A stretch of DNA of 64,000 nucleotides from an uncultured Prevotellaceae bacterium (GTDB taxonomy: Bacteria > Bacteroidota > Bacteroidia > Bacteroidales > Bacteroidaceae). The DNA is taken from NCBI GenBank assembly GCA_902778255.1, contig CACYXD010000002.1:62001-126000 (forward strand), written 5' to 3'. The notes under the pieces are model-generated. The model did no database searches, had not been told where the DNA came from, and saw nothing but the letters and a program-made list of their open reading frames with translations. Below, piece by piece: positions 25,254 through 64,000 of the stretch (within the stretch, counting starts at the first letter, position 1; every line of letters starts with the position of its first letter). The position numbers and the translations under genes were made by a program.

Positions 25254-25266
25254 TCCTCTCTCATAT

Positions 25267-27539: not shown

Positions 27540-27564
27540 TCCCCCTCTATCCTCCCCCTTCCTC

Positions 27565-27591: not shown

Positions 27592-27612
27592 AGGGAGCTG
27601 GAAGGAAAATCA

Positions 27613-27693: not shown

Positions 27694-27737
27694 TAAATTA
27701 GGAACTTAGACCTACAAGGTCAGAAAGAATTTGATAT

Positions 27738-28895
27738 ATGATTAGGAAGTACGGACATATCATCATGATGGCAATGGCAATGCTGTTGAGCACGGCCTGT
27801 AGCCAAAGCTCCGAGGATTCGGAGCTGGGTGGTGATATGCCCGTTACTGACTATCAAACTGCTATTAGCTTCAGCGGCAACGAGAGCCAGGAAGAGGCTG
27901 TCACCAGAGCTGCGAGCAAATCACTAAGCGAGAATGTAACAAGCTTCACAGTGTGGGGCTACAAGAATATGAGCTATGATGAGGGTACAGGTTATGGCGA
28001 CCTGCAGACGGTGTTCCCAGGCTATACCGTGAATTGGTACGCCAACAGCGCCGCCACCACGACGACAAACACCAACAACTGGGAGTACGTACTGCCAGCA
28101 CCCTCTGAACAGACCATCAAATACTGGGACTGGAGCGCCAAGGTATATAGGTTCTTTGGTGTGACAGGAACGAAGTGGGAAGCCGGCGATTGGCTCCTGG
28201 GGCAATATAAGCTCAATCAGACCGTTGGGGCCTATGAGATAAGCCTCAATGCAAACGCCACAAGTACAGATGCGATAAACAATACGCCCTACTTCTCACA
28301 TCTGTGGTTCTCCACAGGAAAGTATCCAGAATACGCCGACAAGCAGTTTGGCAAGCCGGTGACGCTGGAATTTTTGAAGCCTCTCACGCGCGTGCGATTC
28401 ATATTTAAATACGTGTACCCGCGCGAGGGAGTCATTTTGAGAGACCAATCATTTAAGCCAACAACAGTTGGCGGCAAGATAGCCCGCAAGGGCACCGTGA
28501 CCATCAGCTACCCGCTGAAAGGTAAGACTGAGAAAGAGACATTTGCCACGACGGTAGATACCAGCTCTGGATACCTGACTGCATTCACCGTGGACAGCGA
28601 TCTCGAGGACGACGCAAAGGACTACGTGACATTGTCGTCAGGCCAGATGACCAGTGATGGCTGGTACATCGTAGCGGCCAACAAGTCGCAAGGCAGCTAT
28701 ACGTTGAGTGTCACCATCAACAACGATGCCAAGACCGCCGTCGTGCCGGCTGAGTATATGAGCTGGCTGCCAGGCTACAGCTACACCTACATCTTCAAGA
28801 TCACTCAGGAAGGTGGCGTGGAGATTGGTTGGGTAGAATATGCCGTAACACCATGGACAGATCTGGAAGCAGACCACATGGTATATAATTGGTAA
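27738..28895 (+). CDS. Fimbrillin-family lipoprotein, copy 3
   Basis: The 385-residue protein has the signal MIRKYGHIIMMAMAMLLSTAC (Cys 21) and AVTRAASKS with Arg 57 near the expected maturation site. Conserved features include VTSFTVWGYKN, NNWEYVLPAPSEQTIKYWDWSAKVYRFFGV, KPVTLEFLKPLTRVRFIF and SWLPGYSYTYIFKIT. It is shorter than copies 1 and 2 and probably an accessory or tip-proximal subunit. It has 17 bp to copy 4. Confidence 0.88.
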   Translation: MIRKYGHIIMMAMAMLLSTACSQSSEDSELGGDMPVTDYQTAISFSGNESQEEAVTRAASKSLSENVTSFTVWGYKNMSYDEGTGYGDLQTVFPGYTVNWYANSAATTTTNTNNWEYVLPAPSEQTIKYWDWSAKVYRFFGVTGTKWEAGDWLLGQYKLNQTVGAYEISLNANATSTDAINNTPYFSHLWFSTGKYPEYADKQFGKPVTLEFLKPLTRVRFIFKYVYPREGVILRDQSFKPTTVGGKIARKGTVTISYPLKGKTEKETFATTVDTSSGYLTAFTVDSDLEDDAKDYVTLSSGQMTSDGWYIVAANKSQGSYTLSVTINNDAKTAVVPAEYMSWLPGYSYTYIFKITQEGGVEIGWVEYAVTPWTDLEADHMVYNW

Positions 28896-43590: not shown

Positions 43591-46500
43591 ATGAAACGAA
43601 TTATGAATGTTAACGGTAAGTTTACAGACATTTATTCATACGTAAAGAATATATTATTCCTGACGGTGCTGCTGACTGTTGGGGCAACCAGTGTGTGGGC
43701 GCAGGAGACCGACTATTCGGGAACGTACTATATTGCCAGCGTGTCTAAAAGATCTGCGGGAAAAGACAATAATTATACATACAATGTCAATAATCCGGCT
43801 AATAACTACTATCTGTGTCCTACGGAAGAATGGTGCTCCTATAAGGCAACTAATGATTTCGAAGGAGGCGATAATGGACAACCGTTCCTGACCACCTATA
43901 AATGTAGGGATGGCGTCTATGATGCTACTAAGGCTATATGGGTTATTGAAAAAGCGCCAGCTCCTAATGATGCTTACTACTATATAAGGCATAAGAAATC
44001 AACCAAATATTTAGTGGCCAATGGCCAGATTTCAGGTGCTGGTATAGACCGTATGCGCGTTCACCTTGAGTCTGTTGTAGATCTTGATGCAGCAGGTGAC
44101 AAAGTGCTTTTTGACATCTCATTAAATAGTAAATCGCAGATAGTTTTTTCTCCTCAGGGGATTAAAGAAACAGGAAAACATGACACTTTTGACCACTCTA
44201 CGCACAGATGGTTGACCGTTAACAATGGTAACTATAATTATCTTACTGGACAACCGGGTAAGACGGGTGGTCCTACAGGATACGAAAATACTTCAGGTAT
44301 CTTAGGTATATTTAATAAAGAAGATGCCAACGCTCCATTATATCTTGAAGATGCTCGTGTTGCTCGTCCTACATTCTCGATGAATGATGCAGGAGATGTA
44401 ACCATAACTGTTCCTGCCGGTACAACCGTTCATTATACCCTGGACGGCACAGATCCTACGGCGGAGAGTGCGACATATTCATCCGTTATATTAGCAGCAA
44501 ATATTCCTGCAGAACAGACCGTTAAGGCTATTGCTGTTCCTGATGCTCCAACGGATAAACTTCCTTCTGTTGTTGCTACCTTGCCGCTTATCACTTATCA
44601 CATCGTTAACAAGTCGAATGCCATCGCTGTCAGCAGTAGTGCTATCAGACAGTTAGCAGGAACACCTTTGAGGAATGGAAATACTGATGCCAATGATGAT
44701 GGAATTACAGATGGCTACAATGACATTCCAGAAGGACTGCGTAGCCCATATATCTCTGACGAGACGATAACCTTCTACACGATGGAGGGCGATTTTGATG
44801 CCAGCAAACTTGATAACGAGCACAAAATCACGGAAACACCTGACGAGAGTGCTAACATCTATGTGACTTATTCGACAGACAAACTGAACGAAAAGTTCCT
44901 GCATCTGCAGATGGCTCGCCCAATGAATATCAAGCATGAGGAGAGCAGTACCTATAAGTACATCTATAATAATAGTGGAACAGTGACGTACGATGCCTCT
45001 GCAGAAGCCTCAATAACCGATAGTAAATACCTGTGGTATATCGGTAACAGTACCTATCCTGACCCGTACAATGTGTTTGTGAAGAATTCAACGAAGGCAT
45101 CCAATCTGAAGTATGCGTCGTCAACACTTTCTTTGACTGCAGAAGATACATATTATTTTATTACTGATACTACCTATGTTGATGCAAGTCATCAAAATAT
45201 TACCCTGAAGAATATCTCTACTGGAGATTCATTTACTATTAGGGTTAATGAGGTTGAGATTCCTACCAGTTATTACCTGATTGATAAAGCTGGTCAAATC
45301 ATATTCGGCCCAAAGGAAAGTACTTCTGCCACGATGGAAATACCAAGTGAATGGTACAGTCCAGTGGTAAAGAAGTATCACTATTGGAGAAGTAGTTCTT
45401 TTGAAGAAGATGGTACTACTTATACGCTTAAGGAAGACCAGATAGAATTAAGTGGTCTTGCCGAACTTGGAACGAGTGAACATATCTATATTACTTACGA
45501 TGTTGATAATGAGTTGCTTGACCTTGATGGCCGCAACAGTCTTGAGATTGAGGATAAAGTTAATTTGACTTATAGGCTTCAGTTTGCGCATGGCGTGAAA
45601 TTCAATCAGGAAGACGGTAAGGATGGTGTGATGGCTGCAACACGTAAGCCGATCTATCCTTATAGCAATGGTGATGCCGCACTCTATGTCTATGGTGACG
45701 AACGTTGGGAGGAACAGTTGGCAAGTGGTGCCAGCACACGTACACGTTGGCTGTGGTATATAGAGCCGGCAAGGAAACTCACTAACGCCAATAGCGTTGA
45801 TGACCTCGACCCCTACCATGTAAAGATTTCGTCCTATCAGACCCAGACGAATTATACCAATCCTGAAACTGGTAAAGTCGTAACAAATTTCCACTCCTAT
45901 CTGAAGACCTATAAGCCAGAAGGACACAATGCTATTGTTACCAGTGTTACCAATGACAACCCTGCAGTGACGGGAGGAGATGAAGATGATCCAGCCGACA
46001 ACAGCGAGGCTACGGAATACATGATCCTGGGATCGTCAATGAACAACCTGAAACTGGTGACGGTTGATGCCATATCTGATGGTTCAACTACAGAGCGTCG
46101 CACTGTCAACTCCTTTGAACAGTATTGGAAAAACAATCCTACGGTGCAGAAGAAGCTGACCACCAAGGTGACAGCTGTCGGACGTAATGTAACGATGACT
46201 GCTGCTCAGAAAGAGGAGCTGCCTTCAGGCTGGCATGCGTATAATGCCTGGGCTAATTCTCAACCGTGGGTACATAATAATGATAACCCTGGTGGTACAC
46301 CTACTACAGGTAAGAAGTTCTTGAAAGAAGAGCACGTCTTCCAGACTGTTGATATGGGCGACGGAGAATTCAAGTTCATAGAAACGGAGATTAAGCCTAT
46401 GCTTATCCTGCTTGACCAGCACGGATGGGAGATTGTTCGTCTGCCATTGCCCAGCGGTCCTGATGATCCGAATCGTGCTGCACGCTATGCTGAACTTCAC

Positions 46501-49500: not shown

Positions 49501-52500
49501 CGTGGTGATGTTGCCAGTTACGCTGACAATGCTGAGTGTTATATCAACGGTGGACGCTTCGGCATCGTATGCGGTGCCGCCATGGAGGGTGTCGGAAAAG
49601 CTAATGGTGCCGACAATACAGGTAATATCACTTGGCAGATACAGAATGCTGATATCGAAGAGTTCTATGCTGGAGGTCTTAATGCTGCCAGACCTGTGAC
49701 CGGAAACCTTAGTACTACCATTACTGATAGTCATGTGGGCATCTACTGTGGTGGTCCTAAGTTCGGAGACATTAGTCCTAACAAAATCGTCACTACAAGG
49801 GCTACTAATTGTACCTTTGGTACCTATTTTGGTGCTGGCTATGGTGGAAACTCATATAGCCGCTATGCACCAGCGAATCAGAACAACGTTACAAATATCA
49901 ACTGGAACAATTGGCTTAATACCGAATACACGCAGGAATACAATGCTACCTATGGTGGCGTTTCAACCCAATTTACTTATCAGTTCCTGCCAATGTCTGA
50001 CAATGTTACCAATGTGGCTCGTATCTTAATAGATTTTGTCAAGTTCTCATTGGCTACCACGCATAATGTCACGTCTCAACTCACGGGATGTACCGTGACG
50101 GGTAACTTCTATGGGGGCGGTAGGCTTGGTAAGGTTGATGGTAATGTAACCTCAACACTGAATGGCTGTACTGTGAAGGGCAATATATTCGGTGCAGGCT
50201 ATTCTGCAGAGCTACCTACTGTAACGGTTGATGCTATAGGTTTTGAAACGGAGCCTTTATACTATACAGCAACAGGTACCTACCGTACAGGTGTGAAGTA
50301 CAAAGAAAATGAGGCTTATAGACCAACAACCTACACATGGGCGAAAAAAACCGGTAACAGTTGGATCAATAAAACCGACCATATTCTCTACACTAACGAG
50401 GACCTGACAACCCTTGGTGCTGTTACTGGCACTGTCACGCTGACAATTGATGGAGCAAGTGCTGTCGGTGATAATGCAAATGAGGATAGTGGTAATGTCT
50501 ATGGTGGTGGTGAGTCGAGTGATGCTACAAGCGATGTGACTGTAAACGTCCTTAACGGTTCTATGACTGACGTCTATGGTGGCGGTAAAGGTCAGACGAC
50601 GGTTGTCGGTGGTGACGTAACGGTGAACATCGGTGCCAAGGATGGTGGCGGTGCACTCAGCGGTTCTGGTGCCGTGAAAGGCAATATCTATGGCGGTAGT
50701 GCCCTTGGCGTAGTGAATGCTATAAGCATAAAGGATGGCAATGGCAATATTACGGGATACGCCCCATCAGCGGACAAGACTTCCCATGTCAATATCTATG
50801 GCGGTGCAGTAACTGGTAGCGTCTTCGGTGGCGGTCTTGGCGAGAAGACAGGAGTGAGCGACATCGCTGCCCAGAACTTTGGTGATGCCATCATCAGCAT
50901 GGAAGGCGGTAGCGTTGGAGACGCCATCTATGGCGGTGCCAATGCTAATGGTGTGCTAAAGGCTGATGCTAAGGTGACATTGCTGGGCGGTACGATAAAT
51001 GGCGGTTCAAAGGATACAAGTAAAGACGTTGTCTTTGGTGGTGGTAAGGGTGAACCTACGCTGGTAAATGGCAGTGTATGGGTGAATGTAGGTAATTCTA
51101 ACCATACTGGTGCAGCTATCATCTACGGTAACGTCTATGGCGGTTCTGCATTGGGTAATACCAGTGCCAGCAAGACGGGTAGTGATCCGATGGTGTTCAA
51201 TGCCAGCGATACTACGTATGTAAACCTCTATGCCGGTACGATTAACGGTAATGTGTTTGGTGGCGGCTTGGGCCGTAAGGCAGCAGCAGCTGTAGGCACA
51301 GAAGGGCAAGAAGGATATATTGCTCCTGTAACAGCTGTTGAATCATTCGTTGGTGGAGATGTAAAGGTGCTTCTTGACGGCGCGAAGGTACATCAGGTCT
51401 TTGGTTGTAACAACCTGAATGGTACACCAAAGGGCCATGTGAAGGTGCATGTGAAGCAGACTAAAAACTTCGATGGAGACGACACATATAAGAATCATAG
51501 CGAGACAGCCCTCGATGCTCGTACCACATATGATGTTACTGCTGTTTATGGCGGTGGTAACCAGGCGGACTATAACCCGACAAAGGCTACCGGCTCTGCT
51601 GCTGATAAGGAAAAGGCATTTGCCGAAGTAAAGATTGAAGGTTGTGATAAGACCAGTATAGAATATGTCTATGGCGGTGGTAATGCTGCTGCCGTGCCAG
51701 CAGACTCAATTACTATTGAAAGTGCCTACATTATTGGTTATTTGTTTGGTGGTGGTAATGGATCTGGCGCAGGCAACCCTGGAGCTAATGTGGGTATTAT
51801 TGATACAACTGCCTATAAAACTAACCCCGCAAATGGTATCTATGGTACTGGTATCGCAAAGACAAAGTTGATTGGTGGTCAGGTTCGTTACGTATATGGT
51901 GGTAGTAATACCAAGGGTAACGTACGTGGAGGAACATCGTTGGAGAGAAAAAATACTGATACCAATTCTTGTGACTTGATAATTGGCGAAATCTACGGTG
52001 CCGGTCAAGTGGCTCCAATGGATGGCGATGTCGTCATTAAGCTGGACTGTATGCCTAAAGATTTCGTTTCTCAGGTGTTCGGTGGTGCCAAGAATGCTAC
52101 TATCAACGGTAATGTCTATCTGACAGTTTCCAGTGGTAAGTTCGGACGTGTCTTTGGTGGTAACAACCTGGGTGGTAGCATCAATGGCTCTATCGAGGTA
52201 AATGCTTATGAGGATGGATGTAAGCCTTTGATTATCGGCGAGCTCTATGGTGGCGGTTTCAATGCCCCCTACTCTATCTGGGGTTGTAATGACAGCGACG
52301 GAGATGGAACATGGACGCCCAACACTCCTGCAGGGGATCCTCATGTTGCAGAAAATGCTGATGCTATTTCGGTGAATGTATATTCATGTACTTCTATCGG
52401 TAAGGTCTTTGGTGGCGGCTTTGGTGCTACTGCCAATGTGGTTGGTAACACCCACGTCTGGATCAACACCATGCAGGGTATTGTTGACGGAGAAATGAAG

Positions 52501-55500
52501 ACCTATGGTGAAGGTGTGTACATCGGCAAGATAGGTCAAGTCTTTGGCGGTGGTAATGCTGCTCCAGTGAAAGGCGATGTTACCATTGATATCGGTACGG
52601 CAACAGTAAGCAAAATACCTTCCACAGGTGAGGATGCAGAAAAGATAGGTATCAGAATCATCAATGGTACCGACTATCTCAAGACGACAACGGATGCTGA
52701 TACTACAATTACTGCCGGTATCTATGGCGGTGGTAATGCAGCCGACGTGGATGGCAACGTTACGATGAATATCGGTACGGTTAGTCAGAACCAGGGCATC
52801 AACATCGGTGGTAATGTCTATGGCGGTGGCTATGGTGAAACGACCCATGTGACTGGCAATGTGACGATGAACATCGGCGCAGATACAGGTACTGCTCCTG
52901 CCCATAACTACGTAGGCTATGCTAACATCACTGGTGATGTCTATGGTGGCAGTGCGAAGGGTAAGGTGAATTCTCATTTAGTAGAATCTACCGAGACGTA
53001 CACTGCTGATAAGACTACTCATGTAAACTTCTATGGCGGAACTATCTATGGTAATCTGTATGGTGGCGGACTTGGCGAAGCAACGCATGCTGCCGACGTC
53101 TATGGTCCTGTGACTGTGACGATGGGAAGTGGTACCGTCAATAACGTGTTCGGCTGTAATAATGTTCTTGGTACTCCTAAGGATTCAGTACTAGTTATTA
53201 TCAATGGCGGTACTGTTAACCAGAGCGTCTATGGCGGTGGTAACCGAGCTGTCTATACACCAAGTGGTGAGCAGAATTATCCGGCAGTCAGAATCAATCA
53301 TGGTACTGTCACGGAAGATGTCTTTGGTGGTGGCCTGGGAGCAGCTGCAACTGTCACTGGCAATCCCCAAGTGACGATTGGTGATACAGAAGAGAATCAT
53401 ACGGTTGCTGTGGGCGGCAGTGTGTATGGTGGTGGTGATGAAGGTAATGTTAATGGTAATCCCCATGTCATGGTACAGAATACAAATACCACTATTGCCA
53501 AGAATGTGTTTGGTGCTGGTAAAGGTAGAAGTACCACCTTCGAGTGTGCGGAAGCTATGGTGGGCGTTAATAACGCAGGTGCCTGCGCAAATCCCGAAGA
53601 TTATGAAAACAAAGGCACGAAAGTTACCATTATTAACGGTACTATAGGAACGCTCAATGAAGGAAATCTCGTTGCTGGTACCGGTAACGTCTATGGTGGC
53701 GGTGAGATTGGCCGTGTGGAATGGAATACGCAGGTGGAGATAGGTGTCGGAGGAGGCGCACCTGTTATCGAAGGATGCGTATTCGGTGCCGGTAAGGGTT
53801 TGGAGACCCATGGTTATTCAGCGCTTGTGCGTGGTAACAGTACTGTCACCATTGATGGCTATGCTAAAATTGGAAAGAACGTCTATGGCGGTGGTGAGAT
53901 AGCTACTGTGGGCAGATATTGGGTGAAAGGTGGTAATGCTACTCCTTGCGATGGTGAAGATGCACCTAATACACCACCTGCAAGTTTGCCTAGTGGAATG
54001 CCTTACCAAATGCGTAAAGGTGGAATATGTAATGTCACCATCAAGGGCAATGCTGATATTGGCTATCATGGCGTTGCGAGTGACGCAGGACATGTGTTTG
54101 GTGCTGGTAGGGGTGTTAATCCTCACTTCGTTGAAAGTGGAGAAGGTGAGTCCAAAAAGATGACCATGGAAGGTTGGGCGGATCTCGCTTCAGAGGCAGA
54201 TTATTTAGAGTTCCTCGAAACTTTGGCCTTAGTCAGCAGAAGTACGGTGACTATCAACGGTTGCAACATCAAGGGTAATGTCTATGGTGGAAGTGAGAGT
54301 GGTTTCGTACAGACCTGGACATCTGTAACCATTAAGGGTGACAGCAAGATTGGTACGAAAGGTTCTACGACTTACGGTAACGTCTTTGGCGGTGGTAAGG
54401 GTCTTGCAACCTTTGCGGAAGCCGGAAAGGTGAGAGGATATACCACTGTGAATATCAGTGACGGTATCGTATATGGTAACGTCTATGGTGGTGGCGAACG
54501 AGGTTATGTTCAGCAGAACGTGAGTGTCACTGTGAGTGGCGGTCAGGTTGTCAACGACGTTTATGGAGGTGGCGCATTGGCAAATACCAATACGGATAAC
54601 TGGAACACCTCAGGCAGTGCATTTGAGTATGTGGCGGTCGATCCTGTGCCCACTGTTAATGTAACTCCTGTCGGTGGATATTACACGAGATCGGGTGATT
54701 CGCCTAATTACGTTTACACATTGGTACCTAATGGTAAAGCAGCAGTAGATAAGACATATTATAAAAAGAAGGTAGTCGGAGATTGGAATGCAACTCATCC
54801 TTATACAACCAAGGTTATCCTGACTGGTGGTGTCATTGGAAATGCCTATGGTGGTGGTCTTGGAAGTTCAACTGTTGCTGCCAATGTATATGGCGATGTA
54901 AAGGTAACGGTAAATAAACCAGCAGAAATTACGAGTACTGGTGGTTCCGGAGTCGCATTTACAAGAAAGACTGTAAATGTCACGTATGGAATAGGGAATA
55001 AGCAAAAAGAGTATGTTATTCCATTGACAGGACGTGTCTTTGGCTGTAACAACATCAATGGTACGCCTACTGGAGATGTCAAGGTTGAGGTCTATGCTAC
55101 AAAGCAAATAGAAATAGACGAACAAGATAACTATACGTTGTATCCTATTTCTGGTGAAGGTAGTGAACACAGTCCGAATAGTCACAATAAATATTATGAG
55201 GTTCAGGCTGTCTATGGTGGCGGTAATCTGTCAGACTATTTGCCTGCCACAGGGAAAACCACTTCGGTTTATATTGGCGAATGTGATGTAACAAGTATAG
55301 AGAAGGTATATGGTGGTGGTAACTCTGCCGTTGTACCAAGTTCTGAGGTTGTTATCAATGGTTCATATGATATAGGTACTGCGTTTGGCGGTGGTAATGG
55401 TGGCGACCTGGTTCAGAAAGATGGCGTTTGGTATGAAAATGATGGTGCTATCGTTATAGGAACTGCTTTGATGAAACCTAAGGGCGGTAAGGTCGGTGAG

Positions 55501-58500
55501 GTCTTTGGCGGCAGTGACGCAAAGGGCTTCTGTGGTAATCCTATTATAGATAAAACGGAAACCAACCCATACTGTAAATTAGTAACTACCAGAATGTATG
55601 GTGCTGGTAAAGAGTCGGACGTGGACCATGTGGATATAGTAATTTCTGGTTGTACAGCTGAGAATACTGATATTGAATATGTCTTTGGAGGTTCTTATAA
55701 TGCTCATATTGCAGATTATATTAATTTGACTATCAAAGCTGGCGTCTTCAAGAATGTATTTGGCGGAAACGACCGTACTGGTAGTATCGGAGGTAATATT
55801 ACAGTAAATATTGAGGAAACCGAAGATTGTGCAAAGCCTCTTATCATTCAGAACTTGTTTGGTGGCGGTAATCAGGCTGCTTATCCTGGAACAAAAAGAG
55901 ATGGTACTGAAATCGCCACATCAGGAAAGATTACTGTGAATGTCAAGTCTGCTACGCGTATTGATAACATATTCGGTGGTAGCTTCATGGCCGACGTGAA
56001 TGGTGATACTGAGGTGAACATCAACATGTCGAAAGGTTTCTGGGCAGGAAAGACATATCAAGGAAAGCTCATACCAGATTCTGTCGGTGTCATTGGCAAT
56101 ATCTATGGCGGTGGTAACCAAGGTGTGGTTCGTGGTAATTCTAAGGTTAATATATGTACTGCGGATTCCGTAGGATATAAGACAATACCCGCACATCTAA
56201 CCTACAGAGAGAAAGACGGTCTCTATTATGTTCCTGTCACTGGAGCAAGAATCACCGGTGATGTATTTGGTGGCGGAAACGAAGCCAATGTGAATGGTAA
56301 TGATACTGTGAACATCTGCACTGCCGATTATTCTGGTATTTCTGGATTCCAAGGCGTTTCTATTGGTAAGACCGTCTATGGCGGCGGTAGTGCTGCTGAT
56401 GTGAAAGGTAATACATTCGTGAAAATGTCTGGTGGCTATGTCTTCAATGGTGTCTTTGGAGGTGGCCTGTCCGGTTCGGTGGGTACATTTACCAGAAGAA
56501 CTGAAGATGAATACACAGGTGTCTATGGTCATACATCTCACACCGGCTGTATTGGCAAACCCGTTTCATGTGCTGAAAACACAGGTAAATGTACGGTTGT
56601 GGTTGACGGTGGTCAGATAGGTCCTGTTGAAGTGGCAAAAGATGGTATGAACAGGTCGGTGGCTAACGGTGGTCCTGTCCCACAAGGTTGGGTATGGGGC
56701 GGAGGCTGCGGTCTCATCGAGGATCCTTCTACTAACCCTGATACGCACTTCAAGACCTACGTTGGAAGCACTGATGTGACTATTGGCGGTACGGCTTTCA
56801 TTCTGGAATCAGTCATCGGTGGCGGTGAGTTCGGGCGTGTGCTGGGCAATACGCTTGTGAAGATTAAGGACCATTGTCAGATTGGTGTGGGTGATGGCCA
56901 GTGGGAAACCGTGGCTGGCGTCGATAAGCCCATACGCTATACTGATGGTTATGACTATGGTAGTGGCGCTACTACGAACCAGTTCATCGACCCGACCGTA
57001 ACACCGGTTACAGATGGGAACAAGTTAGCCGAATGTTCGCACTTCCCGTATGGCAATGCAGGTCAACACCTGCCTTACGACACATACTATAAAAAGTATT
57101 GTAACAAGGATGCCTCATTTGCAACGAATCATCCAGAATTAGGTCCTGCCAGCACTGATAATCCTTCTGACGGTCAAACATGGATTGGCTGTGTATTTGG
57201 TGGTGGCTCTGGCTATATGCCTTACGAGAAGGCCGATGGCACTGGCTATGACTGGTGTAAATCGGCAGGTTGGGTAGAAGGTAATACTGAGGTACAGATT
57301 ACTGGTGGTCATATCCTGAACAATGTCTATGGTGGTAATGAGGTTACTGACGTAAAGGGTACATGTACGGTGACGATGTCTGGCGGTACGATTGGTGTAC
57401 CGCGTACCTTGGCACAGATTGCTGCACATCCCCTTAGCTGCTATCTGTTCGGTGCTGGTAAAGGTGACCAGCGCACCTACTTCAACGATTATAACAATGT
57501 AGGAAACGTAATAGTTAATGTTTCTGGTGGTATCATCTATGGTTCTGTATTGGGTGGCGCTGAGGATGGTCACGTGCTCGGTAATACTTCAGTGACAATT
57601 AGTGGTGGTACCATCGGTACCTGGGGTACTTCCTATGTCGATGGTAACGTCTTCGGTGGTGGTCGTGGTTTCTCTGGTGAGAACCTGGCTGCTGGTACCG
57701 TGGGGGGCAACACTACGGTGACTATCAACGGCGGCAAGATGCTGGGTTCTGTCTATGGCGGTGGTCGTATGGCATCGGTAGGTGTGAACTTCGCAAGCGC
57801 TCAGGATGCATCTTCAGGACAGTTCACGGAGGATACCAATGAGAACACCTATGGTCATGTCACCATCAATATCACTGGCGGTACCATTGGTAATTCCACT
57901 GAAACTGCAACAGAAGATGGACACACCAAGGGCGGTAATGTCTTTGGCGGTGGTATGGGTAGTCTGACTAAGCTTGACGGAACAACGCCTAACACACTCT
58001 GGACAAAAATGGCACAGGTGAAGACCTCGTCTGTCAATATCACAGGTGCTTCTACCCATATCAAGAGTAATGTGTATGGCGGTGCGGAGTATGGTACGAC
58101 ACGTGACAGGGCTTGTGTGACTATTGGTGGAACAAGGAATGAGTCAACAGGTGCAATCACTCCTGTAATAACTGCAGCAGGTACACCAACCATCAATGGC
58201 CATGTCTATGGTGGCGGTTATGGTAGTACCAATAATGCAGCGACCTATAACAGTGATATCGTGGCAGGCGAAACCACAACCTATCGCTTCACGCCAATGC
58301 AATATGCAGGTATTGTGGGTGGCGAGACGGTTGTCAACATTGTTGGCAACAGCCACGTTAAGGGTAATGTCTTTGGCGGTGGTGAAATGGCCTCTGTAGG
58401 TGTCATCGACTATAGCGTTGACGGCAGTGGCAATTATATCAATGTTATTAAGCATGACACCTATGATGATGCGAAGAATACCTTCCATGACTTCGGTCTT

Positions 58501-61500
58501 AGCTGGCCCTATAAGTTTGACTATGTACCAACGCTCAAGGTCGGTGCGAATTACATCAAAGGTGGTAAGACCACAGTGAACATCGCAGGTTCTGCAGAAG
58601 TCGGCACCTATAGTGGTAGTGCCTATACCTTTGGCGGCTATGTGTTTGGCGGCGGTAAGGGTAAAGTAGATTTCAATAATGGTGGTGTAAACGACATCAC
58701 GACGCAGCGCTATACGGAAGCTCATATTTGTAACGTCCGAGAGACAGAGGTGACTATTGGAGGTACATCAACAATCAGAACAGTTTATGGCGGTGGTGAT
58801 AACGGACACGTTCTCGAGGATGCCAGCATTACCATCAATGGCGGAACCATCAGACGTACTGCTTTTGGCGGTGGTAAGGGTACCGGCGAATTCAAAACAA
58901 CATTGTTGAATACTTCTGGTTCAGGCAGTTCTGAAGTATCTGTTTGCAGCTGGACGGCTGGTAAGGTCTATGGCAACACCTCACTTACCATGAATAATGG
59001 TAGTGTAGGCTGGTTTATCTATGGTGGCGGTAACATGGCCTCTGTGGGTAAGGGTAACTATACTGGCGGATCGGATGACTATTATGCTGCGGGCTATGGC
59101 GAATTGCCCTCTGCCGATGGTGCAATTTGGACAGCAACCCCAGCAGCAGGGACCTATGCCCACTACTTCCAGAACAGTGGTATTGCTACGGTGAATATCT
59201 ATGGCGGTACTGTGGGAGCTGATGATGCTGGTGATGATTCTGACGGTATCCCTTATGGTTCTGTCTTTGGCGGTAGCCGTGGTAAGGCTGCCAAGTCCAC
59301 TGGTTACTCTCCACGCTACAAGTACGTGCCCGACTTCTTCATGGGTTATGTGAACAAGGCAAGAATTAAGATTGGTAAGACTCGTGATGAATATGTGGGT
59401 GACTATGCATCCTATACCGGTCCAACAATCTATGGCTCAGTCTATGGCGGTGGTCAGGACGGCCATGTACGCAACAGTACTGAGGTGACGATAAATAAGG
59501 GAGCCATTTCTGGTCAAAAACCATCAGTCGATACTGGAGGTCGAAGTGGTCATGTGTTCGGTGCCGGTTCGGGTATCGGTAAATACACGGATGGTGGTAG
59601 TTATTGTAACAGCTCTTCCGGTTCTGTCACCTGTACGACGCAAATTGACGTGAAAGGCGGTAGCATTCATGGTAATGTCTATGGCGGCGGTGCCTTGGCT
59701 TCTGTAGGTCCCCGTAATATGGGTAAGAATGAACAGAAAGAAAAAACGGAATCGAGCACCCATGCATCCTTCTCACACAATAAGGTGACGATAGAGGGTG
59801 GTAGCATTGATGGCAGCGTATTTGGTGCCAGCCGTGGTCCTGGTTCTGTCATGTTCTCTGGTGTCTCCCCCGTATTCTCTGGTGTTGGTACAGGGACAGG
59901 GCAATACGATCCGACTAAGTTTGCTACCTCAATATGGACTGAGGTGAACGTGAAAGGTGGTACCATCGGTGGTAATGTCTATGGCGGTGGCGAGATGGGC
60001 CAGGTCAAGGCGAGTACAGTAGTCAGCCTGACCGGTGGTAGCATAGCCCACGATGCATATGGTGGCGGTAAGGGAACAAAAGATTCCATTGCAGCTGATG
60101 TTGGTGGTGATGTTACTGTGGAGTTGAACAAGAGCGTGGAAACTACTGCTAAGGGATGTGACGTAGAGAAAATCTTCGGTTGTAACGATATATACGGTAC
60201 ACCGAAGGGACATGTCACAGTGCATGTATTTGCTACGCAGCATAGAGACTCGACACAGATTAGTGCTAAGAGTACGAAGTTCAAGAGTATGGAGGGTGGA
60301 TATACCATTGCCGAATCTGGCGAAAGTAGCTATAAAGCTAAAACTAGCGCTGATGACCTCGGGAAACTCGCCCAAACCGTAGGCTTGACTTCCGATCAGA
60401 TTACCGCATATGAAACTGCAATTTCTGGCGGTGCTACTGATAGTATTAAGAATGTAAGACTTAATGAATACATAGAAGCTGTTGCAGACAAGAAATACGA
60501 CGTACTTGCTGTCTATGGTGGTGGTGACCTGGCAATCTATGAACCGACAGATCCTACCGAGAATACGGATGTCATCATTGAGGGTTGTGATGTGACCAGC
60601 ATCAAGCAGGTCTATGGTGGTGGTAATGCAGCTTCTACCCCTGCAACTAATGTCAGAATAAACGCTGCCTACGAAATCCATGAGGCATTCGGTGGTGGTA
60701 ATGGTAAGGATATTTATGAGTTAAATGGTGAGTGGTATGAGAACCCAGGTGCCAACGTGGGCTATTATGCGACATACCATCATACCTCTGCCGGAGGTAC
60801 ACGAGTCAGTCCTCATCCCGCTGTCGAAAACAATGGCTCTGGAGGTTATAAGGATGCAACGACTAAGGATGCTCGTCGTGCTAACTATCCTTACGGAAAT
60901 GGTACTACCAGACTGGAAATTACCGGAGGACGTATCCATACAACCTATGGCGGTAGTAACACGAGGGGTAATATCAGAGCAGAGGCATTTACTGGCACCG
61001 AAGATGCTGGAGATTGCCCTATGCAGATTGATAAATCATATACAGCCGGAAAGAGTGCCGATACCGATGCAGGATCAAAAGTTGAGGCGAAGTGCGTAGA
61101 GGTTAAACAAGATGCCATCTATGGAGGGGCTCTGGACGCTAATGTGTATAGTGATGTTGTGATTGATATTACCAATGGTACTTATGGTAAGGTATTTGGT
61201 GGTAATGATACCAGAGGAAAAATATATGGTTCTATCACTATTAATGTACATGAGGAAGGCTGTAAGCCTATCGTTATAGACTCACTATATGTTGGCGGTA
61301 AATTGGCTGATTACTCTATCTATGGATTTAAGGAGAATGGCTCTGCACGTACTAAAGCGGAATACGACGATTTGACTTCTGAGCAAAAAGCGGCTATCAC
61401 TGTTCAGCGAGACCCACAGATTAATATCATCTCTGCCACGAAGATTGGTACTATCTATGGTGGTGGCTATCAGGCAAAGGTAATAGGTAATCCATCTGTC

Positions 61501-64000
61501 AATGTGAACATGGAGAAGGGTAAAGTACTTGCTAAGTATGCAAATGATCCTGCTAAGGCGGCTGCTTACACTGTAAAAACTCACGATTCACCTGATGGAT
61601 ACACCTATGAAGTGGTTAGCCATCCTGAAAATGGAGATGCCATCCTTGCAATCGGTTCTATCGGCACCATCTATGGTGGTGGTTATAAGGGCGATGTGCA
61701 AGGTAATACTTCTGTGGCAATTGGTACTGGTGAATGGTTGAACCAAAGAGGTCAGCGAGAAACCACAGATGCAGATGGTAAAGTCTATACTTATAATACA
61801 ACTACCCAAAAATGGGATTGGACTAAGACTGTAGATGAAACCACGACATCGGGTACTGTGGATGACAAACCTGTTCCTGCCCGCAATGCTGCTACGATTA
61901 CAGGTAATGTATTTGGTGGTGGTGAGGGTGAAGCCCTTGAGAGCGGTGACCGTGCTTTCTACTGTGAGGCTGCTATGGTTGGTGTTGACCGTGAAGGTGA
62001 AGATCCTACAAAGCGAGACGGTGGAACAACTGTCATCATCGCGAATGGTACAGTGGGTACTCTTGATGGTGGAAGCCTCGTATCGGGTACTGGTAATGTC
62101 TATGGCGGTGGTAAGATTGGCCGTGTAGAGAAGAATACAGTTGTCACCATCGGTGTGGAAGGTGCTACTGGTGCAGGAACCAAGTTCAGACCTACTGTCT
62201 TAGGTAGTGTATTCGGTGCAGGACAAGGTGTTGCAACTCACGGATACTCTGCTCTGGTTCGTGGTAACAGTACTGTCACCATTCAAGGTGTTGCCAAGGT
62301 TGGACAAAGTGTATATGGCGGTGGTGAGAAGGCTTCTATCGGACGATATACCATTGCGCAAACTGATGAAGATGCTACGGCACATGGAGTAGAAAAGGGT
62401 ATGCCTTATTCTCTGTTGTCAGACAATAGCGGCAGTTGTACAGTTATCGTCAGAGACAGTGCTGAAATAGGACCTAATGACATGATTATGACAAGGGCTG
62501 GCGGTCCTGATAACTCGGGCCATGTCTTTGGCGCTGGTCAGGGCGTTTATCCTTATGAAGGCTTCTCAGGTGTAAATAAACCATGGCGTATGACGATAGG
62601 TGGTACCAAGGAAATATATAATACTGCTACTGCTGCTGATACACTTTTATATCTGAAGTATGTTGAATCTCTTGGCTTGGCTACCCAGACAGATGTCACT
62701 ATTGGTGGAAATGCCTTCGTGAAGGGTGATGTCTTTGGCGGTGCAGAGCAAGGATTTGTGCAGCACGATACAAAGGTAACCATAAAAGATAACTGCCAGA
62801 TTGGTGGTGGTTATGTACAGATGAATGATGCTGGTGAGTACTTGTTATCACCGTACAGTCTTAACCGCCGTTATACAGACGCAGAGTGGGCTGATGGACG
62901 TCTTTACAAATATGGTGAGAGCAATTATCAGCATTCTCTGCCTGAGTGTGCAAGCTGGAGGTATCAGTCTCCATATGCTGCGCATGATATATTTGCTGGC
63001 ACTGTTGGTTACGACTCTAAGGGGGGCGCACTTACAGCAACCAACGGCAGTACCTTCTATGGTAATGTCTTCGGTGGTGGATCGGGCTATTTCCCCTATG
63101 CCGCAGGTAAATGGCACTGGAAGGCTGGTGATGTTGGTGGCAATACCGTAGTGGAAATCAAGGGCGGTCATATTCTGACCAATGTGTATGGTGGTAACGA
63201 GCTGACAAATGTGGAAGGATCGTGTACTGTTACGATGTCAGGTGGTACCATCGGTGTGCCTCGTACCCTAGGTCAGATTACAAAGCACCCAGTAACCTGT
63301 TACCTCTTCGGTGCGGGTAAGGGTGACCCACGTGTATTGTTTAACAAGCAGACCAATGTACAGAACGTTAAGGTTAATGTTACTGGTGGCACCATCTACG
63401 GTTCAGTCTTCGGTGGCGGTGAGGATGGTCACGTGCTTGGCAATGACACGGTGAATATCAGCGGTGGTACCATTGGAACTTGGGGTACTTCCTATGTAGA
63501 TGGTAACGTCTTCGGTGGCGGTCGTGGTTTTGCAGGTGATGCCTATACCGCAGGTAACGTGGCTGGTAGCGTGACGATGAATATCACAGGCGGAACGATG
63601 TTAGGATCGGTCTATGGTGGCGGTCGTCTGGGGTCTGTGGGCTACGGTTTGTATGACGCAGGCGCAACAGGATACGGCGAGATGCGTGACGATAACAAGA
63701 TGGATGATGGTACAACTGCTCCTGCAGGAATGTTCCCGAATGGACGTGGTCACGTGGAAATCAACATCAGCGGCGGTACCATAGGTAATACCTATGAATA
63801 TAAAATACCTGATGCCACAAACATTGCAACTTTAAATACGGCTTTAAGTAAGTCTTTAAATACAGACTTCACACAATGGAGCGCTTCAGACTGGACGACC
63901 TGGCAGGATTATTACAATGTGCCAAGTACCACCTATGACACCTCTGACGGCAAACTGCACCACACAAGAGGTGGTAATGTTTATGCCGGAGGCATGGGAC
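43591..64000 (+). CDS. Giant secreted YGGG-repeat protein 2, at least 6803 residues, incomplete
   Basis: The frame begins at ATG 43591 and remains open to the last base, so the gene exceeds 20.4 kb and its end lies beyond the window. The signal peptide is MKRIMNVNGKFTDIYSYVKN plus ILFLTVLLTVGATSVWA. Residues about 260-330 (VTITVPAGTTVHYTLDGTDP) resemble a chitobiase-type FN3-like domain. GLUG-like repeats (NCGVNSGSVSGSVYAGGIVG) lie near 1340, and from about residue 2150 onward the sequence is almost continuous (V/I)(Y/F)GGG(N/E/K) solenoid. Long blocks recur within the gene. It is related to giant 1 and follows RAYT by 86 bp. Likely a surface fibre or adhesin; a C-terminal sorting domain cannot be assessed. 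Confidence 0.9.
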   Translation, partial: MKRIMNVNGKFTDIYSYVKNILFLTVLLTVGATSVWAQETDYSGTYYIASVSKRSAGKDNNYTYNVNNPANNYYLCPTEEWCSYKATNDFEGGDNGQPFLTTYKCRDGVYDATKAIWVIEKAPAPNDAYYYIRHKKSTKYLVANGQISGAGIDRMRVHLESVVDLDAAGDKVLFDISLNSKSQIVFSPQGIKETGKHDTFDHSTHRWLTVNNGNYNYLTGQPGKTGGPTGYENTSGILGIFNKEDANAPLYLEDARVARPTFSMNDAGDVTITVPAGTTVHYTLDGTDPTAESATYSSVILAANIPAEQTVKAIAVPDAPTDKLPSVVATLPLITYHIVNKSNAIAVSSSAIRQLAGTPLRNGNTDANDDGITDGYNDIPEGLRSPYISDETITFYTMEGDFDASKLDNEHKITETPDESANIYVTYSTDKLNEKFLHLQMARPMNIKHEESSTYKYIYNNSGTVTYDASAEASITDSKYLWYIGNSTYPDPYNVFVKNSTKASNLKYASSTLSLTAEDTYYFITDTTYVDASHQNITLKNISTGDSFTIRVNEVEIPTSYYLIDKAGQIIFGPKESTSATMEIPSEWYSPVVKKYHYWRSSSFEEDGTTYTLKEDQIELSGLAELGTSEHIYITYDVDNELLDLDGRNSLEIEDKVNLTYRLQFAHGVKFNQEDGKDGVMAATRKPIYPYSNGDAALYVYGDERWEEQLASGASTRTRWLWYIEPARKLTNANSVDDLDPYHVKISSYQTQTNYTNPETGKVVTNFHSYLKTYKPEGHNAIVTSVTNDNPAVTGGDEDDPADNSEATEYMILGSSMNNLKLVTVDAISDGSTTERRTVNSFEQYWKNNPTVQKKLTTKVTAVGRNVTMTAAQKEELPSGWHAYNAWANSQPWVHNNDNPGGTPTTGKKFLKEEHVFQTVDMGDGEFKFIETEIKPMLILLDQHGWEIVRLPLPSGPDDPNRAARYAELHKYSSPMVEKYHFWKTGTKVPGYHKFRVSDYATKSDGTEYTSDELGRADITNPLTPPNLPDYSSQALVSSKERDWYVTYDVKAEYANTYTAAEEENGTAATPYLIKQNGYYAQYSGSGNTLSSTTTEPDITNVPAGMQWYIKPNFNIDEEMGYHYEGQYEEKSKEDTDQDNFDAGKNGFDPYNVQIKSAVPNTDRYFTANTSGSIVTSLWAGTSSSITLENMTETTRQPGVIGLDQTEMKITNATFMVVDDGHGNMRLMPRFDNTKVMHSFTTLANPATANADSIAKQAFTLTPVPQVVNSSADIKIMGGNYLLDYPFDASSGSIGTKTVPFIGTIEGKISQSFSVSAPFIAYADGAVIKNVIIENANSISGDTIGAIVATANGATRIYNCGVNSGSVSGSVYAGGIVGLLNDSSRVINCYSYADVGGGTGGGIVGYNSHASNSTDLKTMVMNCMFYGNMTCSSKAPIYNGEIISNVGQAGLGNYNYFLAEKPYVQNNQINVYNCALMAETRFLQRFEFFRMLLNSHLELAAWYATGKYDRNEMMKWVLETADRNIETPQPYPILKAHGQYPSIINYDAENAEQFSEDAEIKKTQRNQGRKFGTLSVTVQMGDGAQFNRPADASITESSLSLPITDKDFEHFNFNYRKVQLPYYNDVGTKNYTGNRVVTGWKIVSITGGTAGSYTIGADATTDADGNITATPYNFADRNCTNKDLYSESGRVFNQGAYWDVPEGVTSITIEPYWAQAVYLADAYPDVVYNENMGTPYNVNVAGGQIYKDNTSYSIAGSSQVVRTTIGNAVSTLFSGIAENTSNNHTVYDYAIVLVGNTHNIGISSGNIKRPYTIMSIDADHDNEPDYSYILRFNSRNESHPVRVDFVNMPGLGMAQKSTGGSGSYNFGILIPKGWFESTNTSLFRVTQFEYEHGSHPATSPIIVQGGVFEQWVSNNQKGTSNKIPYIHVGGNAWFKEFHTGCHQDKSIATKHSPISVTGGDYNEFYLTGLYRGDVASYADNAECYINGGRFGIVCGAAMEGVGKANGADNTGNITWQIQNADIEEFYAGGLNAARPVTGNLSTTITDSHVGIYCGGPKFGDISPNKIVTTRATNCTFGTYFGAGYGGNSYSRYAPANQNNVTNINWNNWLNTEYTQEYNATYGGVSTQFTYQFLPMSDNVTNVARILIDFVKFSLATTHNVTSQLTGCTVTGNFYGGGRLGKVDGNVTSTLNGCTVKGNIFGAGYSAELPTVTVDAIGFETEPLYYTATGTYRTGVKYKENEAYRPTTYTWAKKTGNSWINKTDHILYTNEDLTTLGAVTGTVTLTIDGASAVGDNANEDSGNVYGGGESSDATSDVTVNVLNGSMTDVYGGGKGQTTVVGGDVTVNIGAKDGGGALSGSGAVKGNIYGGSALGVVNAISIKDGNGNITGYAPSADKTSHVNIYGGAVTGSVFGGGLGEKTGVSDIAAQNFGDAIISMEGGSVGDAIYGGANANGVLKADAKVTLLGGTINGGSKDTSKDVVFGGGKGEPTLVNGSVWVNVGNSNHTGAAIIYGNVYGGSALGNTSASKTGSDPMVFNASDTTYVNLYAGTINGNVFGGGLGRKAAAAVGTEGQEGYIAPVTAVESFVGGDVKVLLDGAKVHQVFGCNNLNGTPKGHVKVHVKQTKNFDGDDTYKNHSETALDARTTYDVTAVYGGGNQADYNPTKATGSAADKEKAFAEVKIEGCDKTSIEYVYGGGNAAAVPADSITIESAYIIGYLFGGGNGSGAGNPGANVGIIDTTAYKTNPANGIYGTGIAKTKLIGGQVRYVYGGSNTKGNVRGGTSLERKNTDTNSCDLIIGEIYGAGQVAPMDGDVVIKLDCMPKDFVSQVFGGAKNATINGNVYLTVSSGKFGRVFGGNNLGGSINGSIEVNAYEDGCKPLIIGELYGGGFNAPYSIWGCNDSDGDGTWTPNTPAGDPHVAENADAISVNVYSCTSIGKVFGGGFGATANVVGNTHVWINTMQGIVDGEMKTYGEGVYIGKIGQVFGGGNAAPVKGDVTIDIGTATVSKIPSTGEDAEKIGIRIINGTDYLKTTTDADTTITAGIYGGGNAADVDGNVTMNIGTVSQNQGINIGGNVYGGGYGETTHVTGNVTMNIGADTGTAPAHNYVGYANITGDVYGGSAKGKVNSHLVESTETYTADKTTHVNFYGGTIYGNLYGGGLGEATHAADVYGPVTVTMGSGTVNNVFGCNNVLGTPKDSVLVIINGGTVNQSVYGGGNRAVYTPSGEQNYPAVRINHGTVTEDVFGGGLGAAATVTGNPQVTIGDTEENHTVAVGGSVYGGGDEGNVNGNPHVMVQNTNTTIAKNVFGAGKGRSTTFECAEAMVGVNNAGACANPEDYENKGTKVTIINGTIGTLNEGNLVAGTGNVYGGGEIGRVEWNTQVEIGVGGGAPVIEGCVFGAGKGLETHGYSALVRGNSTVTIDGYAKIGKNVYGGGEIATVGRYWVKGGNATPCDGEDAPNTPPASLPSGMPYQMRKGGICNVTIKGNADIGYHGVASDAGHVFGAGRGVNPHFVESGEGESKKMTMEGWADLASEADYLEFLETLALVSRSTVTINGCNIKGNVYGGSESGFVQTWTSVTIKGDSKIGTKGSTTYGNVFGGGKGLATFAEAGKVRGYTTVNISDGIVYGNVYGGGERGYVQQNVSVTVSGGQVVNDVYGGGALANTNTDNWNTSGSAFEYVAVDPVPTVNVTPVGGYYTRSGDSPNYVYTLVPNGKAAVDKTYYKKKVVGDWNATHPYTTKVILTGGVIGNAYGGGLGSSTVAANVYGDVKVTVNKPAEITSTGGSGVAFTRKTVNVTYGIGNKQKEYVIPLTGRVFGCNNINGTPTGDVKVEVYATKQIEIDEQDNYTLYPISGEGSEHSPNSHNKYYEVQAVYGGGNLSDYLPATGKTTSVYIGECDVTSIEKVYGGGNSAVVPSSEVVINGSYDIGTAFGGGNGGDLVQKDGVWYENDGAIVIGTALMKPKGGKVGEVFGGSDAKGFCGNPIIDKTETNPYCKLVTTRMYGAGKESDVDHVDIVISGCTAENTDIEYVFGGSYNAHIADYINLTIKAGVFKNVFGGNDRTGSIGGNITVNIEETEDCAKPLIIQNLFGGGNQAAYPGTKRDGTEIATSGKITVNVKSATRIDNIFGGSFMADVNGDTEVNINMSKGFWAGKTYQGKLIPDSVGVIGNIYGGGNQGVVRGNSKVNICTADSVGYKTIPAHLTYREKDGLYYVPVTGARITGDVFGGGNEANVNGNDTVNICTADYSGISGFQGVSIGKTVYGGGSAADVKGNTFVKMSGGYVFNGVFGGGLSGSVGTFTRRTEDEYTGVYGHTSHTGCIGKPVSCAENTGKCTVVVDGGQIGPVEVAKDGMNRSVANGGPVPQGWVWGGGCGLIEDPSTNPDTHFKTYVGSTDVTIGGTAFILESVIGGGEFGRVLGNTLVKIKDHCQIGVGDGQWETVAGVDKPIRYTDGYDYGSGATTNQFIDPTVTPVTDGNKLAECSHFPYGNAGQHLPYDTYYKKYCNKDASFATNHPELGPASTDNPSDGQTWIGCVFGGGSGYMPYEKADGTGYDWCKSAGWVEGNTEVQITGGHILNNVYGGNEVTDVKGTCTVTMSGGTIGVPRTLAQIAAHPLSCYLFGAGKGDQRTYFNDYNNVGNVIVNVSGGIIYGSVLGGAEDGHVLGNTSVTISGGTIGTWGTSYVDGNVFGGGRGFSGENLAAGTVGGNTTVTINGGKMLGSVYGGGRMASVGVNFASAQDASSGQFTEDTNENTYGHVTINITGGTIGNSTETATEDGHTKGGNVFGGGMGSLTKLDGTTPNTLWTKMAQVKTSSVNITGASTHIKSNVYGGAEYGTTRDRACVTIGGTRNESTGAITPVITAAGTPTINGHVYGGGYGSTNNAATYNSDIVAGETTTYRFTPMQYAGIVGGETVVNIVGNSHVKGNVFGGGEMASVGVIDYSVDGSGNYINVIKHDTYDDAKNTFHDFGLSWPYKFDYVPTLKVGANYIKGGKTTVNIAGSAEVGTYSGSAYTFGGYVFGGGKGKVDFNNGGVNDITTQRYTEAHICNVRETEVTIGGTSTIRTVYGGGDNGHVLEDASITINGGTIRRTAFGGGKGTGEFKTTLLNTSGSGSSEVSVCSWTAGKVYGNTSLTMNNGSVGWFIYGGGNMASVGKGNYTGGSDDYYAAGYGELPSADGAIWTATPAAGTYAHYFQNSGIATVNIYGGTVGADDAGDDSDGIPYGSVFGGSRGKAAKSTGYSPRYKYVPDFFMGYVNKARIKIGKTRDEYVGDYASYTGPTIYGSVYGGGQDGHVRNSTEVTINKGAISGQKPSVDTGGRSGHVFGAGSGIGKYTDGGSYCNSSSGSVTCTTQIDVKGGSIHGNVYGGGALASVGPRNMGKNEQKEKTESSTHASFSHNKVTIEGGSIDGSVFGASRGPGSVMFSGVSPVFSGVGTGTGQYDPTKFATSIWTEVNVKGGTIGGNVYGGGEMGQVKASTVVSLTGGSIAHDAYGGGKGTKDSIAADVGGDVTVELNKSVETTAKGCDVEKIFGCNDIYGTPKGHVTVHVFATQHRDSTQISAKSTKFKSMEGGYTIAESGESSYKAKTSADDLGKLAQTVGLTSDQITAYETAISGGATDSIKNVRLNEYIEAVADKKYDVLAVYGGGDLAIYEPTDPTENTDVIIEGCDVTSIKQVYGGGNAASTPATNVRINAAYEIHEAFGGGNGKDIYELNGEWYENPGANVGYYATYHHTSAGGTRVSPHPAVENNGSGGYKDATTKDARRANYPYGNGTTRLEITGGRIHTTYGGSNTRGNIRAEAFTGTEDAGDCPMQIDKSYTAGKSADTDAGSKVEAKCVEVKQDAIYGGALDANVYSDVVIDITNGTYGKVFGGNDTRGKIYGSITINVHEEGCKPIVIDSLYVGGKLADYSIYGFKENGSARTKAEYDDLTSEQKAAITVQRDPQINIISATKIGTIYGGGYQAKVIGNPSVNVNMEKGKVLAKYANDPAKAAAYTVKTHDSPDGYTYEVVSHPENGDAILAIGSIGTIYGGGYKGDVQGNTSVAIGTGEWLNQRGQRETTDADGKVYTYNTTTQKWDWTKTVDETTTSGTVDDKPVPARNAATITGNVFGGGEGEALESGDRAFYCEAAMVGVDREGEDPTKRDGGTTVIIANGTVGTLDGGSLVSGTGNVYGGGKIGRVEKNTVVTIGVEGATGAGTKFRPTVLGSVFGAGQGVATHGYSALVRGNSTVTIQGVAKVGQSVYGGGEKASIGRYTIAQTDEDATAHGVEKGMPYSLLSDNSGSCTVIVRDSAEIGPNDMIMTRAGGPDNSGHVFGAGQGVYPYEGFSGVNKPWRMTIGGTKEIYNTATAADTLLYLKYVESLGLATQTDVTIGGNAFVKGDVFGGAEQGFVQHDTKVTIKDNCQIGGGYVQMNDAGEYLLSPYSLNRRYTDAEWADGRLYKYGESNYQHSLPECASWRYQSPYAAHDIFAGTVGYDSKGGALTATNGSTFYGNVFGGGSGYFPYAAGKWHWKAGDVGGNTVVEIKGGHILTNVYGGNELTNVEGSCTVTMSGGTIGVPRTLGQITKHPVTCYLFGAGKGDPRVLFNKQTNVQNVKVNVTGGTIYGSVFGGGEDGHVLGNDTVNISGGTIGTWGTSYVDGNVFGGGRGFAGDAYTAGNVAGSVTMNITGGTMLGSVYGGGRLGSVGYGLYDAGATGYGEMRDDNKMDDGTTAPAGMFPNGRGHVEINISGGTIGNTYEYKIPDATNIATLNTALSKSLNTDFTQWSASDWTTWQDYYNVPSTTYDTSDGKLHHTRGGNVYAGGMG
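51397..51762 (+). repeat. FGCN super-module, copy A
   Basis: Encodes VFGCNNLNGTPKGHVKVHV, AVYGGGNQADY, IEYVYGGGNAAAVP and LFGGGNG in order. Same order recurs at 55036 and 60172. Confidence 0.8.
53545..53922 (+). repeat. AMVGV/GYSALVRGN module, copy 1
   Basis: Contains AMVGV, GTIGTLNEGNLVAGTGNVYG, GAGKGLETHGYSALVRGNST and VYGGGEIATVGRY. Closely matches 61963-62349 about 8.4 kb downstream. Confidence 0.85.
55036..55401 (+). repeat. FGCN super-module, copy B
   Basis: Encodes VFGCNNINGTPTGDVKVEV, AVYGGGNLSDYLP, IEKVYGGGNSAVVP and AFGGGNG. Same 366-bp length as copy A. Confidence 0.8.
57193..57783 (+). repeat. GVPRTL/GTWGTSYVDGN module, copy 1
   Basis: Contains VFGGGSGYMPYE, GGHILNNVYGGNEVT, TVTMSGGTIGVPRTL, YLFGAGKGD, GGTIGTWGTSYVDGNVFGGG and VYGGGRMASVG. 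Matches 63067-63642. Confidence 0.85.
60172..60705 (+). repeat. FGCN super-module, copy C
   Basis: Encodes IFGCNDIYGTPKGHVTVHV, AVYGGGDLAIYEP, IKQVYGGGNAASTP and AFGGGNG; carries an extra insert relative to A and B. Confidence 0.8.
61963..62349 (+). repeat. AMVGV/GYSALVRGN module, copy 2
   Basis: Second copy of the 53545-53922 block, with an extra ATGAGTKFRPT stretch before the FGAGQG segment. Confidence 0.85.
63067..63642 (+). repeat. GVPRTL/GTWGTSYVDGN module, copy 2
   Basis: Second copy of the 57193-57783 block, about 5.9 kb downstream, near the right edge. Confidence 0.85.

Follow-up and report, generated by a model that had tools for sequence, protein, structure and literature searches.

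What does a bacterium do with a secreted protein of nearly 8,000 residues, and does such a chain act alone? The question is raised by a 64,000-nucleotide stretch of DNA (the window) from an uncultured Prevotellaceae bacterium, positions 62,001 to 126,000 of contig CACYXD010000002.1 (C2:62001-126000) in a 3.5-Mb, 69-contig assembly (GCA_902778255.1). The right part of the window is filled by one giant gene, here called G, which the initial annotation described without a partner. G proved instead to be the second member of a conserved same-strand pair, the first being S, which is encoded upstream and carries the same YGGG repeat. On balance it seems, if only just, probable that G and S are the outer and basal chains of one giant fibre, in which the C-terminus of G, ending in mid-coil, docks on the N-terminus of S, which begins in mid-coil.

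How sound is the giant gene itself? Its frame opens with an ATG at 43591 of the plus strand and meets no stop through base 64000, as first described, and the product of more than 6,800 residues then predicted from more than 20.4 kb came to 7,926 residues, with zero Ns, once the same contig was read on to a stop at C2:129371, 3,371 bases beyond the window edge. A cobalamin series (CobU, DBI_PRT, CobS) opens 18 bases after this stop. The proposed signal peptide is visible by eye, and the description of the protein as mostly YGGG solenoid stands for about three quarters of it: the YGG repeat begins near residue 2,020, and the first ~2,000 residues form a distinct head, outside the repeat, with a predicted trefoil tip. 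When residues 1-1500 of G, as encoded in the window, were searched against a protein database, 124 proteins matched; among the best 120, 100 carry at least 10 YGG motifs. G itself and 86 of those 100 end inside the repeat, and the remaining 14 appear by eye to be truncated or frame-shifted. The longest of these matches has 7,986 residues, and genomes reach 8,342 aa; as none of the listed proteins exceeds 7,986 aa, the protein database probably has a length ceiling. One match, P0005 (7,931 aa), stands for a 15-member cluster whose longest contig measures 105,866 bases; beyond residue 500 it is 78-100% identical to G in each 100-residue bin, with just 4 bins below 90%. A further homologue, of 7,814 aa, is encoded on a 3.73-Mb contig of Prevotella sp. 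E9-3. The initial annotation had held that misassembly must be excluded; because P0005 and the E9-3 protein are of the same length and come from independent assemblies, an artefact is an unlikely source of G. Named homologues of G or S belong to E9-3, Prevotella sp. E13-27, metagenome-assembled genomes (MAGs) of Prevotella, and Bacteroidaceae/Prevotellaceae MAGs, so that Prevotella or something closely related is the likely source of the window; the source-named records of both proteins are titled hypothetical protein or chitobiase-domain protein. A further set of matches, P0100-P0124, comprises giants of ~4,300-7,000 aa that share part of the G head, have almost no YGG repeat and, in most members, finish in a sorting-domain-like end.

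How closely is S tied to G? Two hundred genomes of the genus were searched at E ≤ 1e-20 with residues 1-1,500 of G and the last 1,032 residues of S. The pair is common: S matched in 53 of the 200 genomes, the G head in 48 and both in 41 (Fisher test for co-occurrence 1.4e-24, uncorrected for relatedness), and in the protein database S has 1,886 matches at E ≤ 0.001, of which the best 120 span 3,865-4,403 aa. When each locus is counted as one row and further pieces of the same locus are left out, a G match lies within 15 kb of 35 of the 55 S loci, and in each of these 35 cases it follows S downstream, on the strand that encodes S. Most of the other 20 S loci end at or near a contig end. Both a head and a shaft follow S in G082:C5, and the start of a chain is visible downstream of it in G150 and G168; G172 has a transposase there, and G126 and G173 match S weakly. 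Short-read assemblies probably break in the G repeats, so that G is under-counted. In 12 of 20 relatives S is followed immediately on the plus strand, after a gap of 4-93 bp, by the gene of a YGG chain. Per-genome match lists give S frames of ~3,600-4,400 aa where these are not cut, and no S fused to G was found among the genome matches to S; many contigs end within 1 kb after S. When 40 relatives were searched with the G head, matches at E ≤ 0.001 appeared in 3 of 17 genera, and in the two of these besides the home genus they reached only ~1e-5. No paper on the S-G pair was found in a literature search that excluded most subscription journals and all preprints, and none of the papers searched contains the motif strings NVYGGG, VYGGGN or GNVYGG.

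The argument that the two chains meet comes from the point in the repeat at which each begins or ends. Twenty-seven stretches from 26 genomes, picked for a linked S and G or for several G matches and thus not random, hold 57 YGG chains, 53 of them complete at the 3' end (22 S, including one cut at its start, and 31 others). All but one of the 31 complete non-S chains (9 heads, 17 fused head-shaft chains including this G, and 4 shafts) end 18-32 residues past their last YGG, most commonly 22. At the other end, a YGG stands a few residues after the signal peptide, as judged by eye, in all 21 complete S chains and in 7 shafts; in the S of G022 a linker of ~30 residues precedes the first YGG. Inside the chains, YGG motifs are spaced 25 (119 of 2,004 spacings) or 26 residues apart (114 of 2,004), with almost no spacing below 25 except those of 16 or less. 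Against a 26-residue coil profile, phase 0 gives the top score for the 30 chain ends (24.6; next -16.7) and phase 18 for 29 chain starts, one of which is an internal piece (3.3; next -0.9). Chain ends thus fit coil positions 0-17 and chain starts 18-25, and the 18 residues of an end plus the 8 of a start add up to the 26 of a full coil. G stops two-thirds into a repeat unit, and S, whose sequence directly after the signal peptide is QIKIGGNVYGGGN, opens with the missing third. The pattern of this S start recurs within the first 130 residues in 111 of the best 120 S matches. On 26-residue coils these are uncapped chains with complementary partial repeats, as in curli.

The initial annotation had also proposed structure prediction of slices to look for a beta-helix. 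The slice that was folded came from S, not from G; it carries the same repeat and is predicted with high confidence (predicted local distance difference test, pLDDT, and predicted template modelling score, pTM, in Table 1) to be a continuous helix from its first residue. The N-terminus of S is accordingly a predicted beta-solenoid, a confident model with structural matches, and a Foldseek search with it gave nothing at E ≤ 0.001. A PDB sequence-profile search with S C-termini found no match.

A second line of evidence is the division of G itself. Nine of nine separate heads, from seven genomes, end at the equivalent of G residues 2,321-2,375 (best hits), and shaft starts map just behind this split point in two of seven cases. 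G082:C5 is an eighth genome in which head and shaft are apart. Two parts that form a single chain in some species and two chains in others are classically taken to touch each other; head and shaft, fused or split according to species, offer such evidence for a head-shaft contact.

Where, then, is the address for export? The initial annotation looked for it beyond the right edge of the window; the stop was there and a sorting domain was not, G ending in repeat. The candidate domain sits on the upstream partner, inside the window: the C-terminus of S resembles a type A sorting domain of the type IX system, in divergent form. Among S relatives 15 of 18 C-termini match the model TIGR04183 at E ≤ 1 (best 1.7e-7), and 103 of the best 120 S matches show a sorting-domain-like end by a pattern of my own. 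None of 10 G-type ends scanned out of 30, this G included, matches TIGR04183 at E ≤ 1. The genome holds 8 other sorting-domain matches over the cut-off, and the translocon Sov/SprA is present (SprA_N, E 1.2e-211; found in 0 of 14 control genomes).

The far end of G is a different matter. Pfam (G residues 1-5,000 and the whole of S) and NCBIfam (for the C-terminal part of G, its last 150 residues) gave CHB_HEX_C_1/Fn3_assoc in the G head and otherwise chance-level matches. The tip has a predicted beta-trefoil fold, and within residues 1-5,000 of this G there is no Pfam lectin domain; PF14200 (RicinB_lectin_2) is precomputed for a number of G homologues. Identity to P0005 over the first five 100-residue bins is 62, 38, 38, 43 and 88%. 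Such N-terminal divergence is shown by three of the 8 close pairs compared, and in one of these three the annotated starts are not the same; one further pair diverges at 901-1300 instead and 4 show no divergence. Judging from these few sequence comparisons, the tip may be exchanged between strains.

Taken together, a giant fibre could be built as follows. S would leave the cell through the type IX system and be fixed to the surface by its C-terminal domain, and G, without a sorting domain, would reach the surface together with S or through it. The partial coil at the end of G and the partial coil at the start of S would complete one turn of beta-helix, so that the solenoid continues across the break between the chains; in relatives with a divided G, the same kind of stacking would join head, shaft and base. 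With about 114 and 36 YGG-like motifs in the two chains and 0.48 nm per coil, the fibre would measure roughly 70 nm. The lectin-like tip of G would lie farthest from the cell and, if its predicted fold is a guide, bind glycans on a surface or host. More tentatively, I suggest a modular fibre of head, shaft and base, fused or separate, assembled by split-coil complementation, with all chains cut at the same point of the coil (18 + 8), the sole sorting domain on the base, a chain of ~0.8 MDa carried by that base and a lectin-like tip exchanged between strains. If the fibre is real, two or three chains continuing one another's beta-helix would form a surface structure of ~12,000 residues with an export address on just one of them, the type IX system would move a very large partner that has no sorting domain, and coil phase would become a rule for recognising giant chains that belong together.

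Several observations weigh against such a fibre. S of this genome scores below the TIGR04183 cut-off (15 vs 23 bits), and sub-cut-off matches also occur in 13 of 14 control genomes, with a match above cut-off in 1. G, at ~0.8 MDa and without a sorting domain, has no known route across the outer membrane. In G131 the 20 kb read downstream of S contain no G-type chain, and the shaft of G087 ends 201 residues past its last YGG. On 25-residue coils the start phase is missed (best 5 or 23, not 17), 5 of 7 shaft N-termini map elsewhere in the repeats, and divergence of the tip is limited to the 3 pairs mentioned above, the one with a differing annotated start among them. The first coil of S has a mean conservation of 0.86, yet 65 of 497 windows equal or exceed this, and the last coil of G stands at 0.75 vs 0.72-0.89 for the other YGG coils examined. 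Conservation of the end coils was considered as support for an interface and rejected, since the end coils are not special.

That lack of unusual conservation speaks for a rival view, in which S and G are encoded in one operon yet act independently, at the surface or secreted, sharing the repeat by ancestry, with end phases left by recombination and no docking. Both belong to one repeat family, and a common end phase could have come by descent. I nevertheless regard this as unlikely, because starts and ends are complementary rather than alike in widely differing chains, separate heads stop where the fused G continues, neither end has an extra capping segment as judged by sequence, and G has no sorting domain of its own. 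Lower still in probability is self-polymerisation of G-type shafts, with S as an anchoring terminator and the head closing the other end. A separate shaft does begin at phase 18-25 and end at phase 0-17, shafts of this kind with a partial coil at either end occur in 7 genomes (4 with a complete, in-phase C-terminus), and curli subunits are reported, in the available part of one account, to stack head to tail (PMC10192328). In this genome, however, head and shaft are fused, as they are in 16 other listed chains, which leaves no free shaft, and there is no sign here of more than one copy per fibre. It is very doubtful that G leaves the cell by a separate pathway, perhaps one tied to the lipoprotein genes upstream, and ends up as free matrix protein beside a separate anchored adhesin S: the absence of a sorting domain from G would fit, as would the homologue of the 408-aa lipoprotein gene that directly precedes S in 16 of 20 relatives, but no transporter-like gene of known kind was recognised in the cluster and the complementarity of the chain ends would go unexplained. 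Finally, an assembly artefact or pseudogene with expanded or collapsed repeats deserves almost no credence, for although such repeats break assemblies and many S loci reach a contig end just ahead of G, homologues of the same length exist in other assemblies and on a 3.73-Mb contig, and the frame is uninterrupted over 7,926 codons.

Table 1. Features of the S-G locus in window coordinates (C2 marks contig coordinates beyond the window)
Feature	Position	Strand	Remarks
DUF3575 and DUF5119 genes heading the cluster	20591..23279	+	DUF5119 just under cut-off
Three lipoprotein genes (634, 713, 385 aa)	23349..28895	+	weakly fimbrillin-like
Lipoprotein gene directly upstream of S, 408 aa	28913..30139	+	
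Partner gene S, 4,032 aa	30171..42269	+	N-terminal YGGG solenoid and unique C-terminal half
S signal peptide, residues 1-20	30171..30230	+	by eye, before QIKIGG
S mature N-terminus QIKIGGNV	30231..30254	+	fits last 8 positions (18-25) of the 26-residue coil
S stretch predicted as continuous beta-helix from first residue	30234..31793	+	pLDDT 93.4, pTM 0.93
Putative type A (type IX) sorting domain of S, divergent	42102..42245	+	TIGR04183, 15 bits vs cut-off 23
REP-transposase-like gene between S and G, 411 aa	42269..43504	+	NF047646, E 6e-4, under cut-off
Giant gene G	43591..64000, on to C2:129371	+	7,926 aa
G signal peptide, residues 1-37	43591..43701	+	by eye; cleavage after ...SVWA (...LLTVGATSVWA/Q)
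G head, residues 1 to ~2,347	43591..50631	+	separate gene in some relatives
G tip, residues 38-256, predicted beta-trefoil	43702..44358	+	predicted structure
G stretch of ~residues 50-410, diverging sharply from P0005	43738..44820	+	38-43% in bins 101-400
CHB_HEX_C_1 / Fn3-associated domain, residues 264-319	44380..44547	+	
G shaft, YGGG solenoid from ~residue 2,300 to the C-terminus at C2:129371	50488..64000 and beyond	+	

The genes around the pair (Table 1) add some observations of their own. The REP-transposase-like gene between S and G is not part of the fibre. Such a gene also stands directly after S in G096 (stretch 3710-5035) and, after S in G154, behind a 362-aa gene, cut by the contig end; other relatives are without it. 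Between S and G in G204, G051 and G096 lies a single-chain protein of 891-1,432 aa with a sorting-domain-like end, which in G204 and G051 is 31-32% identical to G. A fimbrillin identity of the upstream genes is weakly indicated by sequence: Mfa_like_2 and Mfa_like_1 were each found in 1 of 14 relatives, and the window's own four proteins have no fimbrillin family domain at E ≤ 0.01. PDB sequence profiles of two lipoprotein sets gave nothing convincing, one set matching the fimbrial protein BF1861 at E 0.078. A 530-aa open frame with a GTG start lies on the minus strand at window 30165-31757, antisense to the start of S, and is probably a by-product of GGN-rich codons. GC content is 36-38% in two 2-kb bins within window 15001-18000, vs ~47-53% nearby.

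What known systems does the pair resemble? The predicted G tip shares its fold with ricin-type beta-trefoil lectins; unlike these, this G has no detected Pfam lectin domain, and its sugar binding is a prediction from the modelled fold. As regards two-partner exoproteins such as FHA and HxuA, no TpsB-like partner was seen among the scanned neighbours, where no search with a TPS-domain model was made. Giant1-5 of Apilactobacillus kunkeei, according to the available part of their description (PMC12863079), are encoded by consecutive genes and are extracellular, 3,000-8,000 residues long and with beta-solenoids at their N-termini; in this they are like S and G, whereas their host is Gram-positive and their rods consist of alpha-helical repeats. 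The words "stack" and "end-to-end" are absent from that part of the text. Flavobacterium SprB and RemA, very large Bacteroidota surface adhesins, are described in the available part of PMC10202324 as exported through Sov/SprA, each with its own sorting domain (type B in SprB, type A in RemA). They share the giant size class with the present pair, and SprA_N is found in this genome. In contrast to both, the tip-bearing giant G has no type A sorting domain (the type B model and gliding genes were not searched), and it is the neighbouring chain S whose end resembles one. The closest likeness is to curli (CsgA), whose subunits, as far as the accessible part of PMC10192328 describes them, stack head to tail into a continuous solenoid, some with half-repeat overhangs; there, as in S and G, beta-solenoid chains have uncapped ends and partial repeats that the next chain continues. 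Unlike curli subunits, S and G run to thousands of residues each, have differing sequences, keep a fixed gene order, have a base with a sorting domain and are built of a YGGG coil of 25-26 residues. I do not claim membership of the curli family, and the likeness is drawn from the chain ends; by that analogy, S and G may work as a curli-type stack.
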